64,000 nt of DNA from Bacteroidota bacterium (GTDB taxonomy: Bacteria; Bacteroidota; Bacteroidia; B-17B0; Aurantibacillaceae). The stretch lies in the NCBI GenBank assembly GCA_021156365.1, contig JAJNDK010000009.1, positions 62,001 through 126,000 on the forward strand, written 5' to 3'. This document shows positions 3,446 through 63,134 of this stretch, piece after piece. The first letter of the stretch is position 1. The number at the start of each line of letters is the position of its first letter. The translations under genes were made by a program, and so were the position numbers. Below the pieces are notes generated by a model. That model was given only the letters and a program-made list of their open reading frames with translations, ran no database searches and was not told where the DNA came from.

Positions 3446-3823
3446 CTGTCTTCCATTGCATGTATGCTATCCCGATCAAAATCGCCGCTATCTTCCAACA
3501 TACTACCGCTATCGTGAACAGGATTTACGCTGTCTCCTTCAGGATCACCGCTATCGTGAACACGATTTACGCTGTCTTGTTCAGGATCGCTGCTATCGTG
3601 AACAGGATTTACGCTGTCTCGTTCAGGATCACTGCTATCGTGAACATGATTTACGCTGTCTCCTTCAGGATCGCTGCTATCGTGAACATGATTTACGCTG
3701 TCTCCTTCAGGATCACTGCTATCGTGAACAGGATTTACGCTGTCTCGTTCAGTGTCACCGCTATCTTTTAACAGATCACAGCTATTGTGGGCAGGGCAAC
3801 GTTTATTTTCGGAAAGATCGGCG
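3446..3823. repeat. Tandem array of about 18 monomers of 21 bp (42-bp higher-order unit)
   Basis: Monomers begin with CTRTC at 3446, 3467, 3488, 3509 and then every 21 bp to 3782, with a decayed copy at 3803-3823. Neighbouring monomers alternate between two types (CTATCGTGAACA..., CTGTCTCCTTCA...), giving a 42-bp unit whose CTATCGTGAACA start recurs at 3509, 3551, 3593, 3635, 3677 and 3719. Because 42 is a multiple of 3, several frames stay open on both strands across the array, including a 198-codon minus frame with acidic 14-residue repeats. None has a credible start, signal or family match, so I treat it as non-coding. There are no unique spacers, so it is not a CRISPR array. It fills most of the 3374-4153 gene-free stretch; I see nothing clear in 3830-4150. 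Confidence 0.9.
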
Positions 3824-4153
3824 TTCCCGTATGCCGTTTTTGTTTTGGGCCATACAGCCGGCTTCCGCCACTTTTCGAAAAAATCCAACCACTTATCGGA
3901 TAAAAATAACCACCTGCAAAATCGCTGTAACTTTTGCGAAACCCTGTGCGTTATACTTATCAAAAAACAACCACAGCTGTCGCCCCGGCGCCGGCTCCAA
4001 AAAAAGGACACAGGCATGAAACACTACAGCCATCTTCTTTACCTCTCCTGTAGTATGCAGGGATAGATCGCAGGGACGGACACCTGCAGGACAGGTAAAA
4101 CAGCTTAACAGCGCAAACAGGTCCCGCAAAAAAATCTTTAATACTTAGAAATA

Positions 4154-4759
4154 ATGAGACAGAATAAAATACGGGTGGCCCTGTACATGGCAAACATGTC
4201 GGTACCCGAAAAACTTAAAAAATCAAAAAGAGTGGAAGGTGCCATTCTTGGTAATCCATCCATATTCGTATCGCCTGGAACCGCGCTGAGTGATATGACC
4301 AACGCCGCTGCCGCCCTCGAAACGGCATGGAACAATACAGAGGACGGGGGAAAAAGCCTCACTGCTATCATGCGCAACAAGGAAGAGCTCTTCGACGCGG
4401 CTATGCTGCAACTGGCAATATACGTGGAACTGACGGCTGCAGGCGATCCTGAAGTGATCTACCTCGCGGGACTGGATGTACGTCCGCTACCTGCTACACA
4501 TGCGCAGGCAAACTTCGAAGCGAAACACGGGAACGGAACCGGCCTCGTTCAGCTAAAAACAAAAGCGGTGAAAGGTGTCAGCTACGACTGGCAATACAGC
4601 AACGATAATGTAAACTGGACGGATGCGGGCGCCAGCTTACAGAGCCGGAAAATGCTGGAAGGCCTCAGCCCCGGTACACGCTACTGGTTCCGATTCGCTG
4701 TGATCGACAAAAACGGTCAACAGCCCTGGTCGGAGCCGGTGAGCCTGATCGTTGTGTAG
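4154..4759 (+). CDS. Fibronectin type III domain protein (Bacteroidota hypothetical family)
   Basis: A 201-residue protein without signal peptide. The first 110 residues are mostly helical and Ala-rich (NAAAALETAWNN, AAMLQLAIYVEL). From about residue 115 a fibronectin type III fold can be followed: YDWQYSNDNVNW, then LSPGTRYWFRFAVI and PWSEPVSLIVV as the last strands. Proteins of this layout are common in environmental Bacteroidota and have no known function; the FnIII part suggests protein or glycan binding. Stand-alone gene ending in a hairpin terminator at 4776-4804. Confidence 0.8.
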   Translation: MRQNKIRVALYMANMSVPEKLKKSKRVEGAILGNPSIFVSPGTALSDMTNAAAALETAWNNTEDGGKSLTAIMRNKEELFDAAMLQLAIYVELTAAGDPEVIYLAGLDVRPLPATHAQANFEAKHGNGTGLVQLKTKAVKGVSYDWQYSNDNVNWTDAGASLQSRKMLEGLSPGTRYWFRFAVIDKNGQQPWSEPVSLIVV

Positions 4760-58987: not shown

Positions 58988-59002
58988 TATTTCGGGTTTC
59001 TT

Positions 59003-59033
59003 GTCGCGAGGTAGCGAGGCTTCGCTACGCGAC
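59003..59033. repeat. Palindromic element after the ABC-F gene
   Basis: GTCGCG and TAGCGA pair with TCGCTA and CGCGAC around a GGCT loop, with one AGG bulge. A TTTCGGGTTT word precedes it, as in the ftsA-ftsZ gap. It lacks the T run of a terminator. Confidence 0.65.
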
Positions 59034-59079
59034 GGGTTTATTCTGGTTAAATTATTGAATTTTATCATACTAACCTTCA

Positions 59080-59265
59080 ATGGAAAACGATCCGAAATCA
59101 AAAACAGATGGCCCATCCGATGAAGAGATCCGACGGCTACAGCAGTTTATAGATAGCGGCGGTTTGAAAAAAATGGCAAAGCACAGCTCGCGAATGTTCT
59201 GGATGAGTATAGTGCTTACTTTGTGCCTGGTGATTTTGACCATTCTGCTCACTGTTTTTATGTAA
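59080..59265 (+). CDS. Small single-helix membrane protein
   Basis: A 61-residue protein with a charged N-terminus (MENDPKSKTDGPSDEEIRRLQQFIDSGG) and a membrane helix at about residues 40-60 near the C-terminus. No known motif; the layout is that of a tail-anchored or bitopic accessory protein. Unknown function. Confidence 0.6.
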   Translation: MENDPKSKTDGPSDEEIRRLQQFIDSGGLKKMAKHSSRMFWMSIVLTLCLVILTILLTVFM

Positions 59266-59346
59266 ACCCCGGACCTGAGCTTTCTTAAGATTTCATTTCT
59301 TTAACGGAAAACCGGGAAAGGACTTCCTGTAATACTACAAATTTTG

Positions 59347-59354
59347 TAAATTTG
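59347..59354 (+). promoter_or_regulatory. -7 box TAAATTTG
   Basis: Perfect TAnnTTTG that ends 5 nt before the ATG at 59360. Confidence 0.55.
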
Positions 59355-59359
59355 TGTAT

Positions 59360-59611
59360 ATGCCTAAAGCTATACCAGACGAAAGAGGCTTCAAATTCAG
59401 GTTTTTTTCGAATGAAAGCCATGAGCCACCTCATGTCCATGTTTTTAAAGGAAATGGAGATTTTCCAAAAGCAAAGTGGTGGCTCCTGCCAAAACCGGAA
59501 TTAGAGTATTCAGACGGATTTACAGTACAGGAACACCGGATAATAGAGGAGATAATCCAGACCAGGTATAAAGACATGGTGAAAAAATGGAAGGAACATT
59601 TTAAGCATTAA
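59360..59611 (+). CDS. DUF4160 domain protein
   Basis: An 83-residue protein: FKFRFFSNESHEPPHVHVFKGNGDFPKAKWWLLPKPELEYSDGFTVQEHRIIEEIIQ is the DUF4160 signature (EPPHVHV and a conserved Lys-Trp segment). Members are usually encoded next to a DUF2442 gene, as here (59619, 7 bp downstream). The pair is often listed as a putative toxin-antitoxin-like module, though activity is unproven. ATG 59360 was chosen because the GTG at 59354 lies in the -7 box. Confidence 0.85.
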   Translation: MPKAIPDERGFKFRFFSNESHEPPHVHVFKGNGDFPKAKWWLLPKPELEYSDGFTVQEHRIIEEIIQTRYKDMVKKWKEHFKH

Positions 59612-59618
59612 ACAAATT

Positions 59619-60173
59619 ATGGCAGCAGTTAAAAAAAAATATCCCGAGCAGAAAGATAAGTTGATCGCAGCAGCAGAAGCATCTGCTGTATATACGATGC
59701 TTACCAAAAAAGAACAGGAGCTCCTGAATGCTATCCAGGCCAAACCGACTTTTACATCCATAAATGTACTTGAAACCAATAACAGCGGGTTGAAGAAAAT
59801 CTTAAAAAAAATAACCAAAGCATTAACCGGTAAGCAATCCATCGATATTCCTTCGAAGGATTATGTAGATCAGTTTATTGATAAAGAAAAACTCCAGATT
59901 ACAACTATTGTTATTGACAAAAGTCACGACCGTATGCTTTTCCTTCTAAACAATGGAGCCACTCTTCAGGAAAAAATATCCAGGTACCCGCTCTTAAATA
60001 AGGCAAGTGAGAAGAAACTCAAAAATTATGGCCTGTATGCAGGAAATACATGTGTTGAATGGACAGAGTTGGATGAGGATCTATCGCTCCGTGGATTATT
60101 GAAAGATATTGTATTCGATCCATTGGTAAAATCTTTAAGAGGGCGGGAAGGCTTTGTTTTATCTAACGGCTAA
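59619..60173 (+). CDS. DUF2442 domain protein with N-terminal extension
   Basis: A 184-residue protein. The C-terminal 80 residues (ITTIVIDKSHDRMLFLLNNGATLQEKISRYPLLNKASEKKLKNYGLYAGNTCVEWTELDEDLSLRGLL) are the DUF2442 fold. The N-terminal 95 residues are an extension: Lys/Ala-rich helices and a segment resembling a DNA-binding or coiled-coil region (YTMLTKKEQELLNAIQ, GLKKILKKITKALTGK). DUF2442 alone is about 80 residues, so the fusion is notable. It lies 7 bp after the DUF4160 gene. Confidence 0.8.
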   Translation: MAAVKKKYPEQKDKLIAAAEASAVYTMLTKKEQELLNAIQAKPTFTSINVLETNNSGLKKILKKITKALTGKQSIDIPSKDYVDQFIDKEKLQITTIVIDKSHDRMLFLLNNGATLQEKISRYPLLNKASEKKLKNYGLYAGNTCVEWTELDEDLSLRGLLKDIVFDPLVKSLRGREGFVLSNG

Positions 60174-60243
60174 GCAATGTTTTCTTTCCTTTCGCCTTTT
60201 CACGTTTCTATCAGGATCTATTAAGTCCGCATACGGCACGAAC

Positions 60244-60651
60244 TTATGCCGCATACTGACCAATCAGCTCCACCCCACTGATCTTTACAAACCGATTCTT
60301 ATAAAATGCCTTGGCGATCGTAGGTACATTGTTCTCAAAATACACATGCACGAGCTCGATGGGCAAACCGGAATTCATAATGGCATTTATCTTTGGCAGC
60401 AGCTCCTTTTTATAGACCAGGTCCCTGTAAAACACATTGCCGCCACCGGTATCAGGCTGTAATGTAAGATGGATCTTATCGTGCAGCACTTCAATTTTTG
60501 CCCGGAAGCTTTCATCGGGGTATTTGGTAAGCAGCTCTTCAAACGGTTTAACAGCCGGGTAGCGTGAGCTGTATTTGATCCCGATACGGGATGCTCTGTC
60601 CTGGTATTGCTTTATCAGTAGTTCCATGTTCGGTTTATAAAAGGTGGCCAT
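60244..60651 (-). CDS. Small soluble protein, unknown family
   Basis: A 135-residue cytoplasmic protein with no signal peptide or membrane segment. A helical start (ELLIKQYQDRASRIGI) is followed by beta-rich parts (AKIEVLHDKIHLTLQPDTGGGNVFYRDLVYKKELLPKINAIMNSGLPIELVHVYFENNVPTIAKAFYKNRFVKISGVELIGQY). I do not recognise the family. ATG at 60651 is used; Met9 (60627) is another possible start. It points towards the DUF4160/DUF2442 pair. Confidence 0.65.
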   Translation of the reverse strand: MATFYKPNMELLIKQYQDRASRIGIKYSSRYPAVKPFEELLTKYPDESFRAKIEVLHDKIHLTLQPDTGGGNVFYRDLVYKKELLPKINAIMNSGLPIELVHVYFENNVPTIAKAFYKNRFVKISGVELIGQYAA

Positions 60652-60788
60652 TGGGAATAGGTGGACTACAAAATTAGGGCCTTCCTGAAGGATTGATGGC
60701 TACGATTTATAGCAAGATGTGTTAAAAACAGGGGGAGTTGAAAACTTTCTATCCCGGAAAAAAAACAGGCATTTCCGACCTATAAGAT

Positions 60789-61140
60789 CCGGTTGGCGCG
60801 TTGACCATTGCTACTTAGCCTGTTGAGCACCGCTGGTTAGCCCGTTGACTGCTGCTCACAGGATGGCCTACCACTGCTACTTAGCCTGTTGAGCACCACT
60901 ACTTACCCCGTTGACTACTGCTCATAGGATAGCCTACCACTGCTACTTGCCCTGTTGAGCACCACTGGTTACCCCGTTGACTACTGCTCGTAGGATAGCC
61001 TACCACTGCTACTTACCCTGTTGAGCACCACTGATAGGATAGGAAACAAGCACCGGTAGGCAAGCCGACCACCACTGATAGGCCTGTTGAGCACTGCTAC
61101 TTGCCTTGTTTATCACACCTGGTAAGCAGGATGATCAGTC
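60789..61140. repeat. Tandem array: 16 monomers of 22 bp in 66-bp higher-order units
   Basis: Monomers start at 60789, 60811, 60833, 60855 and then every 22 bp to 61119, mostly beginning CT and sharing words such as CCTGTTGAGCACC, CCCCGTTGACTACTG and GGATAGCCTACCACTG. In the centre three monomer types repeat in fixed order, giving a 66-bp unit with ctacttagcc-like starts at 60811, 60877, 60943 and 61009. The outer monomers are decayed. All frames contain stops on both strands. The flanking sequence 60652-60788 and 61141-61274 has no gene that I can support. Confidence 0.9.
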
Positions 61141-61274
61141 CTTATCAAATGCGACAGATAGGGCTTTAGAAATGGATATAAGAGTTACTTCAATTGTTGC
61201 CCTGGTCTTGCCCGATGCCCTTCTACCGACAGGTAGAGCACAGAGGTAGCTACAGGGGGAGATTTTTATCCGGT

Positions 61275-62354
61275 TCAGATAAGCAGACTGAACTCCTTCT
61301 TCCCCATCGGTTTCCCGTTCACCATGATCTCTACCGCGTGCTTCCCTGCATGGTGCTTACGGGTGGTGAAATCCTTCAGCACCTGCGACTTTTTGATAAG
61401 CTCTGTTTTGCCTGGCTGCAGGTTCAGTTCTTTCAGCTTAAAGACTTTCGGAGATAGCTCCCCACCTTTCTTTACGTAGTGGATCACATAATCAACCACT
61501 AACTTCTGAGTAGTTTTCTTTTCGGAAGTAATACCGAACTCAAAGGCAAGTGTATCGCCCAATTGTAGTTTTGTTTTGTTCAACTTCAGGTTGTCGATCC
61601 GTACTTTTACGTTTTTTTCAAAGTCAAAGACCGAAAGCGAATCGGCATTTCCTTTTTTGATAAGACTGCGGCTGGCATGTTTCACGATCCAGGCCGTGTG
61701 GGGATTGCTCTTGTCCCAGGCTTTTACCATCGTCAGCATCTTGTCCGGGTTGTCTTTGGAAATATCGTTCAGGTGATTGGCCACTGATTTTTTCACATAC
61801 AGCTCCGTATCCGACCTCAGCTTTTCCAATATGTTGGCTGTTACCTGCGGGTTCTTTATAACCTCATCCAGCTTGAAAGACCAGGGCAGGCGCGGTCTCG
61901 AACCCTCTGATGCAAGACGGCGCACATGATGGTTTTTATCTTCCGCCCATTTCTCCATCACTTTGATCGTACGTTTGAAATCCTTTTTCAGGAATTCACG
62001 GATCGCAAATTCGGAAGAACCGAAAGTAGTAAAATACTTCAGAGCATCCAGCGAGGTATCGAAATCCTCCTTGCCATACAAGCCGGTAAAATCAGGGAAC
62101 ACCAGCGATACATAACCTCTCTGCACATCCGGGATCACCTTCCGGCAAAGCTCTATTTGTTTTTCAAAGGTATAGGGTAAGTGTTTGTGCAGCACCACCG
62201 ATGTATTCCGCATACGCTGGTTCAGAGAAAGATCAGCCAGACCTGTGGTGACCTCCTTTACAAATTTGTCGGCATGAAAATTCTTATCTGCCTTTGAAAA
62301 TGCTACTGCAAAGTGCCGGTAGAAAGCAGGATTGAACATGTCTCTTAATTCCAT
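61275..62354 (-). CDS. alkC: DNA alkylation repair protein, AlkC type
   Basis: A 359-residue HEAT-like repeat glycosylase that removes alkylated bases such as 3-methyladenine without flipping in the usual way. The family pattern VKKSVANHLNDISKDNPDKMLTMVKAWDKSNPHTAWIVKHASRSLIKKGN (about residues 188-238) and the ASEGSRPRLPWSFKLDEVIKNP segment near 146-168 match AlkC. A C-terminal immunoglobulin-like domain (residues about 250-359) follows, as in AlkC proteins of other bacteria. Start ATG 62354, just downstream of a dispersed repeat (62358-62377). Confidence 0.87.
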   Translation of the reverse strand: MELRDMFNPAFYRHFAVAFSKADKNFHADKFVKEVTTGLADLSLNQRMRNTSVVLHKHLPYTFEKQIELCRKVIPDVQRGYVSLVFPDFTGLYGKEDFDTSLDALKYFTTFGSSEFAIREFLKKDFKRTIKVMEKWAEDKNHHVRRLASEGSRPRLPWSFKLDEVIKNPQVTANILEKLRSDTELYVKKSVANHLNDISKDNPDKMLTMVKAWDKSNPHTAWIVKHASRSLIKKGNADSLSVFDFEKNVKVRIDNLKLNKTKLQLGDTLAFEFGITSEKKTTQKLVVDYVIHYVKKGGELSPKVFKLKELNLQPGKTELIKKSQVLKDFTTRKHHAGKHAVEIMVNGKPMGKKEFSLLI

Positions 62355-62357
62355 AGT

Positions 62358-62377
62358 AATTTGAAGATTTGAAAATG
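62358..62377. repeat. Copy of the AATTTGAAGATTTGAAAATG repeat
   Basis: Exact 20-mer also at 30415-30434, here directly before the alkC start codon. A partial complement (ATTTTCAAATT) lies at about 62425-62435, inside the 3' end of comB, so the two form an imperfect inverted repeat. Confidence 0.7.
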
Positions 62378-62417
62378 AATATAGAAAAATTAGTAAAACA
62401 ATTAGTAAATCATCAAA

Positions 62418-63134
62418 TTAACTAATTTTCAAATTGACCAGGTACTTTCCTTCCAACACGGGGATCACCGGGGCTGTATTCGGGCTGAGGCAATAGCGGA
62501 TATCTTTCTTCAGGTTCAGCTTCACGAGACGTTCTTTATGTGAAGCGTGGTTGAGGAATTTCATCGGATCATTCTTCGCCATTTCATACAGGTATTGCAG
62601 GGCAAGACATCCATCACCTAAGGCCACTTCTTTCGTGCGCTTACAGATCTCTTGCGTTACGGCACCTGCATACAAAGAATCTTCGAGATTGAATTTATTT
62701 TTCCAGCCGGAGCAAAGAAGCAGCACAGGCCGGTTCTGTTTTACGAGCCAGTCGCACAGCACATCGATATTAAGAAAAGAGCCTATTACCACTTTATATG
62801 CATTGCGTGCAGCTTCTATTGCCTGGGTTCCGTTGGTGGTAGTGAGTGCAATGGTTTGCCCTTTCACATGATCACCCATATAATCGTAAGGAGAATTCCC
62901 GAAATCAAAACCTTCTATTTTTATCGCATCACGCTCCGCGCCGGCCAGGAAACCCTGCTTTTTGTATTCCAGCGCCTCTTCCACTTTTGCTACCGGGATC
63001 ATGCGTTCCGCCCCATTGTGAAAGGCTACACATATGGCTGATGTAGCGCGCAGCACATCAATGATCACTACAATACTTTCGGCATCTTCGTAAACGGGGT
63101 ATAAAGCGGGGGAAAAACAAGCGTCGATTTTCAT
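62418..63134 (-). CDS. comB: 2-phosphosulfolactate phosphatase ComB
   Basis: A 238-residue enzyme hydrolysing 2-phosphosulfolactate to sulfolactate, known from coenzyme M biosynthesis. Family marks are CFSPALYPVYEDAESIVVIIDVLRATSAI near the start, FLAGAERDAIKIEGFDFGNSPYDY near 62-85, ALTTTNGTQAI near 96-106, IGSFLNIDVLCDWL and LLLCSGWKNKFNLEDSLYAGAV near 138-159. In Bacteroidota its role may be in making sulfonated lipids or sulfolactate rather than coenzyme M; no partner gene (comA, comC) is nearby. A TATCTTTG -7 box lies 17 nt upstream. Confidence 0.9.
   Translation of the reverse strand: MKIDACFSPALYPVYEDAESIVVIIDVLRATSAICVAFHNGAERMIPVAKVEEALEYKKQGFLAGAERDAIKIEGFDFGNSPYDYMGDHVKGQTIALTTTNGTQAIEAARNAYKVVIGSFLNIDVLCDWLVKQNRPVLLLCSGWKNKFNLEDSLYAGAVTQEICKRTKEVALGDGCLALQYLYEMAKNDPMKFLNHASHKERLVKLNLKKDIRYCLSPNTAPVIPVLEGKYLVNLKIS

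Follow-up and report, generated by a model that had tools for sequence, protein, structure and literature searches.

The 64,000-nucleotide stretch of Bacteroidota DNA analysed here, hereafter the window, contains two gene-free tandem arrays built of monomers of two helical turns, raising the question of whether such arrays are isolated curiosities or members of a class of locus, and of what role they could play. The second of them (A2) had been described in an initial annotation of the window as 16 monomers of 22 bp with a 66-bp higher-order period, built on the same plan as the first (A1) and independent of it in sequence. This architecture was recovered with 15 clean monomers and one degenerate (Table 1), the a-b-c order of the 66-bp unit being lost past ~61034 and the monomer at 61023 joining a b-like half to a c-like half. 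Self-match over 60789-61140 reached 0.73 at period 66 and 0.52 at period 22 (best periods: 66, 132, 110, 44, 88 and 22), against a maximum of 0.368 at any period of 12-139 in 300 dinucleotide-preserving shuffles. TRF delimited A2 at 60804-61033 (period 66, 3.5 copies, 91% matches, score 376), and among the 30 rows obtained for the window at a minimum score of 30, A1 and A2 alone exceeded 50. A1, whose degenerate monomers span about 3471-3830, follows the same plan with a higher-order unit of two monomers.

A2 carries stops in all six frames, and no second copy was detected in its own genome at E<=0.001. It was likewise unmatched in two further genomes of the genus, of which one is only 66% complete, and the region 59000-62500 had no Rfam match at E<=1. 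The CRISPR plan of identical repeats with unique spacers was not met. A plasmid origin of A2 was rejected in the absence of any match between its DNA and plasmids.

Table 1 Features of the window (window positions) and rows of the array scan dropped outside long open frames (positions in the numbered stretches)
Feature	Position	Strand	Description
Array A1	3508..3765	.	21-bp monomers, 42-bp higher-order unit; TRF period 42, score 425
Three CCACTT/CCACCT boxes	3868, 3889, 3910 (3868..3915)	+	Exactly 21 bp apart
Promoter-like block GTAACTTTT..CGTTATA	3927..3955	+	
F2-family gene	4154..4759	+	201 aa, weak fn3-like C-terminus, 3' of A1
DUF4160 gene	59354..59611	+	
DUF2442 gene	59619..60173	+	
135-aa gene	60244..60651	-	Start codon 151 bp from A2; between DUF pair and A2; no Pfam match
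Degenerate edge monomer of A2	60781..60802	.	Judged by eye
Array A2	60803..61132	.	15 clean 22-bp monomers; 66-bp higher-order unit to ~61034, irregular beyond
alkC-like gene (Pfam DNA_alkylation)	61275..62354	-	3' end 142 bp from A2
Dropped rows outside long frames, first part	L012 19484, L016 3767, L027 14790, L028 3924, L030 6264, L057 12954, L114 4849		Best periods of all 13: 12 to 129
Dropped rows outside long frames, second part	L117 10043, L131 13818, L132 11891, L143 558, L150 3124, L153 5856		

The window and 93 further stretches, totalling 1,916,451 bases (1.92 Mb, 36% of the 5.31-Mb genome), were scanned for tandem repeats, the class being defined by units of 20.75-22 bp or by multiples of that length. 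At a threshold of 0.52, the first 1.116 Mb yielded 43 rows, of which 11 were kept as arrays by inspection; at 0.50, a further 0.8 Mb yielded 22 rows and 3 kept arrays (14/65 in all). Of the 51 dropped rows, 38 lay inside open frames of at least 1000 nt and the other 13 did not. The 21- or 22-bp period was directly visible in 11 of the kept arrays, two being kept at 43 bp and one at 84 bp; only the 43-bp period was seen in A7 and A10, and A8 was retained despite a 1923-nt frame covering it and a weak 21-bp sub-period (0.32). Twelve arrays with a 21-bp unit or a 43- or 84-bp multiple hence stand besides A1 and A2, and non-coding arrays of other periods were weak in the sample. A tandem-repeat search showing only the two initial arrays, or random periods, would have refuted the suggestion of a class, and neither outcome was met in the sampled 1.92 Mb: these arrays are a class of locus and not two curiosities. 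By simple proportion, we infer that ~39 arrays are to be expected genome-wide. Four of the 14 lie within ~200 bp of a contig end (L006, L021, L023 and L025), which suggests that the assembly tends to break off at arrays and that their count is too low.

The total length of about 350 bp initially attributed to the design was not sustained, arrays ranging from roughly 210 to 670 bp, and unit lengths (mostly 21 bp, 22 bp in A2, otherwise 43, 83 and 104 bp) are not tied to codons and fall near whole helical turns. Sequence independence, noted for A1 and A2, was the rule among 19 arrays of the genome (the 14 and five more), A11 and A14 being the one related pair at E<=1e-4. These two (L057:14953-15317 and L119:182-551; 79 bp, 92%) stand in opposite orientation, apparently between convergent genes, and have in common a coding-like frame of 7-residue repeats. 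In A7 (L026:1739-2144), the 43-bp units carry a AAGTCAAA..TTTGACTT dyad, single units displaying paired changes (AAGTCAG..CTGACTT).

Genes flanking several arrays defined two protein families, F1 (231 aa) and F2 (201 aa), one of which is encoded directly 3' of 6 of the 14 arrays. For the eight others no F gene was detected nearby, both flanks being covered for only three of them (A2, A10 and A11). Pfam and NCBIfam contained no family for F1 and only a sub-threshold fn3 match, at the fn3-like C-terminal end, for F2; PADLOC returned nothing for the tested F proteins. Searches of the PDB gave nothing useful for F1 and only fn3-type chains for F2 (best E 1.4e-6), whose weak phage tail matches stem from the same fn3-like end, and single-sequence structure prediction of F2 was unusable (mean pLDDT 31.5). 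A profile comparison did not show F1 and F2 to be a single family. A plasmid or phage origin was rejected, F1 being unmatched in plasmids and phages and F2 in plasmids, and F2 had no match in viral contigs either. The entire genome contains three F1 genes and 10 F2 rows, read as nine genes because two adjacent rows resemble one frameshifted gene. The F2-like gene beside A8 (L031:14834-15247 and upstream) is split over two frames, as is the F2 gene at G000:C16:335086. Within the bacterial class, F1 was present in 26 and F2 in 48 of 295 genomes, including the present one.

All ten F genes of the genome with 700 bp of upstream sequence have an array on their 5' side, with self-matches of 0.59-0.95 compared with shuffle maxima of up to 0.45. 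Five of these loci (L154, L155, L156, L157 and L159) had led to the families; arrays were equally found at the five that had not (5/5), two of which are weak F2 matches (E 5e-5 and 2e-4). The two remaining F genes are cut by contig ends, and no array is visible in their 108 and 226 bp of upstream sequence. For relatives, 28 F1 loci were cut from 67 F1 rows in 25 other genomes, four with under 100 bp upstream and 24 with 700 bp. Self-match was at least 0.5 in 18 of these 24, and in 17 of the 19 encoding at least 150 aa, a cut that was set afterwards; these cover eight families besides that of the window. The two misses were L169, with a 138-bp period instead, and L173 (0.46). L179 and L194 are apparently one locus in two genomes, and L188, a 52-aa fragment, scored 0.65 owing to an A+T-rich 14-bp repeat. 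On the 3' side, only 3 of 39 loci (own and relatives) reached 0.5. This flank comparison was confined to multiples of 20-23 bp; when periods of 12-159 were scanned without that restriction, the same arrays came out, at 21, 42, 63, 84, 104 or 105 bp. On visual inspection, the arrays of relatives consist of successive 21-bp units whose letters differ widely: the period is kept and the sequence is private to each locus. The question of a shared position relative to genes, raised initially, was thus answered positively by the six F genes directly 3' of arrays and by F1 relatives of eight other families, on the same side. Because no F2 loci of relatives were cut, the F2 association is known only for the genome of the window.

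Distances to the gene varied, arrays ending no more than 90 bp from the start codon at 15 of the 17 relatives' loci and 171-374 bp from it in the own genome (extents approximate). No array was kept from the small samples taken of G001, which belongs to the same genus (0.34 Mb), or of G006 and G009, two members of the same family (0.2 Mb apiece); weak or other-period non-coding rows were seen at L066 880, L070 4877, L075 6693, L104 5699 (20 bp) and L104 6252 (24 bp). F genes are few in these genomes (one weak F2 in G001, one F1 and one weak F2 in G006, none in G009), a scarcity that agrees, weakly, with the missing arrays. The location of arrays 5' of two uncharacterised families points to either a control element not yet described or a system made up of array and protein. 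A feature conserved in period and free in sequence is hard to find by homology and easily overlooked; its tie to two families of no assigned function makes it testable, every F gene predicting an adjacent array.

Two or three CCACTT-type boxes at 21 or 22 bp occur in seven of the ten own F loci, and a promoter-like GTAACTT..CGTTATA block lies between array and gene in five. Across the sample, CCACTT-type pairs numbered 24 at 21 bp versus 1-7 at any other spacing, including places without an array. Repeats exactly 21 bp apart were noted in the window (3868-3915) and at L006 3395, L007 13336, L009 7497, L017 3557, L044 868, L054 5756, L114 874, L120 9526 and L124 8732. LytTR proteins recognise direct repeats of 8-9 bp spaced by two helical turns (PMC11347149), and LytTR-type operators (RcoM1, CoxC) resemble the CCACTT triplets in being direct repeats at two-turn intervals beside a promoter. 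The genome encodes 46 LytTR genes versus 26, 24 and 15 in three relatives. The recurrent CCACTT repeats probably serve a single global regulator as its operator, which resembles LytTR sites in spacing, an assignment made without binding data. No CCACTT pair was found in the relatives' upstream regions (0/17), and because it is absent there and present at non-array places, we do not regard this operator as part of the class. Own F2 paralogues (L158, L160, L161 and the window at ~3980-4150) also have a conserved, apparently structured leader (CTCCTGTAGTATGCAGG.. motif) between the promoter-like block and the gene.

The units themselves were compared with column-permuted controls. Self-complementarity was above these controls to a similar extent on either strand (mean z -2.26 and -2.31; 22 F arrays), dyad scores had p<=0.05 in 19 of 30 arrays, and inverted 6-mers numbered 628 versus 204. 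The dyad signal is weaker than it appears, because coding arrays used as a control gave a nearly equal mean z (2.09, driven by one array, vs 2.33), with p<=0.05 in 4 of 13. Hairpin covariation was looked for and not found, within-unit covariation at the dyad being not positive (mean z -0.52), and the sense strand had no G-U excess (54 GT vs 82 AC). Curvature as a selected property was rejected (mean z for bending 0.03, s.e. 0.17, 30 arrays; wedge parameters taken from general knowledge), and no single LytTR-like core of 8-9 bp emerged. Taken together, the both-strand fold signal and the lack of covariation, G-U excess, bending excess and single core favour, without proving, a DNA-level feature over an array of RNA hairpins.

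Starting from what is observed, namely the period, the class, the 5' association with F genes, the private sequences and the CCACTT phasing, we tentatively prefer to read the class of A2 as cis-acting arrays that act as a phased protein-binding platform controlling the gene on their 3' side, without holding this reading to be established; binding, regulation and the identity of the binder are all inferred. Each array offers ~10 to 32 units of two helical turns apiece, so that equivalent points of every unit lie on the same face of the DNA. The period is the conserved feature, to which many arrays would add an imperfect dyad per unit, the letters remaining private to the locus. A dimeric or filament-forming DNA-binding protein could then assemble on the array and control the 3' gene, usually F1 or F2, and in the own genome the array leads into the CCACTT direct repeats at 21-bp spacing beside a promoter-like block, as in LytTR-type operators. 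Arrays would grow and turn over by the copying of higher-order units (42, 63, 84 or 105 bp). If regulatory, they would constitute a control element read by its spacing and not by its letters. Several points speak against such a platform: A2 has no F gene, no CCACTT pair, only a borderline dyad score and no excess foldability; the dyad signal is weakened by the coding control and unaccompanied by positive covariation; CCACTT pairs are missing in relatives and no single core stands out; and array position differs between the relatives and the own genome.

It is also possible, with less confidence on our part, that the arrays and the F proteins belong to a single system in which every F paralogue recognises its own two-turn array as DNA or transcript. 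The pair would co-evolve, with a period fixed by protein geometry and a free sequence, and orphans such as A2 would be solitary elements. Joint action would make this a novel type of paired locus within a major class of bacteria, one present in at least nine families and with paralogues numbering up to ten or more in a genome.

That the arrays are neutral minisatellites, generated by slippage or unequal exchange, with copying favouring two-turn units and persistence where they are harmless, appears unlikely without being negligible. Decayed outer monomers and higher-order units are the traces that tandem duplication would leave, and the arrays without a detected F gene, as well as bending no greater than in permuted arrays, are in keeping with neutrality. 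Such an origin does not account for the strict 5' placement beside F1 or F2 genes in nine families of the class, five independently found own genes included, nor for the weakness of non-coding arrays of other periods.

A serious rival, to which we nonetheless give a low likelihood, is a pair resembling type III toxin-antitoxin systems, in which transcribed array units would bind and neutralise the F protein encoded 3', private sequences would ensure pair specificity, and orphan arrays would be solitary antitoxins. In type III loci (ToxIN, CptIN, TenpIN) a tandem array lies directly 5' of a small-protein gene, a plan met by the F loci (10/10 own, 17/19 in relatives) and also by A2 before its 135-aa neighbour. 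The presence in a genome of several paralogues that each have a different array sequence, the proximity of array and start codon in 15 of 17 relatives and the self-complementary units would fit as well. However, known type III repeats are longer than ~21 nt and come in few copies, unlike the ~10-32 units of ~21 nt found here, and the F loci differ from type III loci in protein family too, no toxin family having been recognised among the tested F proteins (Pfam, NCBIfam, PADLOC). Folding without strand preference and without sense-strand G-U excess argues likewise against a transcribed antitoxin. A terminator-like stem directly follows A1 (3819-3836), none is suitably placed at A2, and one such site is at the level of shuffles (mean 0.7).

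Less probable still is a structured 5' leader, the array lying within the F messenger and its hairpins controlling translation or stability. Start-codon proximity in relatives, foldability, and a TAnnTTTG box that precedes the array by no more than 150 bp in 3 of 15 relatives are compatible with it; the promoter-like block separating array from gene in half of the own loci, a fold signal equal on both strands with no compensatory pattern, and a two-turn spacing left unexplained are not. Finally, we consider it very doubtful that the class is a mixture in which part of the members are coding repeats of 7-residue units, either broken or short, as the coding-like frame common to the related A11 and A14 and the one frame left open in several 21-bp arrays could suggest, given the stops in six frames and 22-bp unit of A2 and the existence of 43-, 83- and 104-bp arrays, which are not multiples of 3.

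None of the known kinds of repeat that were compared fits these arrays. Plasmid iterons are direct repeats of ~20-22 bp at two-turn spacing, whereas A2 lies on a contig of chromosomal size, with no replication gene recognised beside it, in a genome holding many unrelated arrays. CRISPR and VNTR minisatellites are tandem intergenic units as well; the present arrays lack unique spacers, and a constant period, associated with gene families, unites arrays of unrelated sequence. Direct repeats of the TAACTGA heptamer, reported in Beggiatoaceae, Cyanobacteria and five Bacteroidetes in up to 43 copies, are likewise intergenic, tandem and near start codons (PMC4679880); by contrast, in the part of that source available they consist of one fixed heptamer with no favoured downstream gene, whereas our arrays combine a 21-22-bp period, private sequences and a recurrent gene partner, and no 7-bp unit was met in A2. 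The 22-bp unit of A2 also satisfies LytTR two-turn spacing, but LytTR operators comprise two or three sites, each built on an 8-9-bp core (PMC11347149), unlike ~10-32 units with private sequences and no single core. Literature searches found no published description of this array class. Because no tested known kind fits and no description was found, we call the class new in kind, its mechanism being inferred; ordinary operators, if later shown, would change this label.

A2 itself meets the period test of the class, at 22 and 66 bp, and the non-coding test. No F profile match was found within 2 kb and no CCACTT pair at the array; its dyad score is borderline (p 0.052), its foldability does not exceed that of column-permuted controls, and conservation within the unit is not clustered into an 8-9-bp core (p 0.42). 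On these grounds A2 is most likely an orphan member of the class, or an array serving the adjacent 135-aa gene, which under the platform reading would be the gene that it controls. The 135-aa protein resembles neither F1 nor F2, has no match in viral contigs and only one weak homologue in the other genomes of the 295 (27% identity, E 1e-4), and its single-sequence structure prediction was unusable (mean pLDDT 47.4). The DUF4160/DUF2442 pair and alkC, initially named as neighbours of A2, are in place, the latter as an alkC-like gene. A relevance of alkC found no support, no such array being present at 17 alkC-like loci of relatives (several overlapping or partial). The alkC-like locus is also present on contig C16 of G001 (L036).
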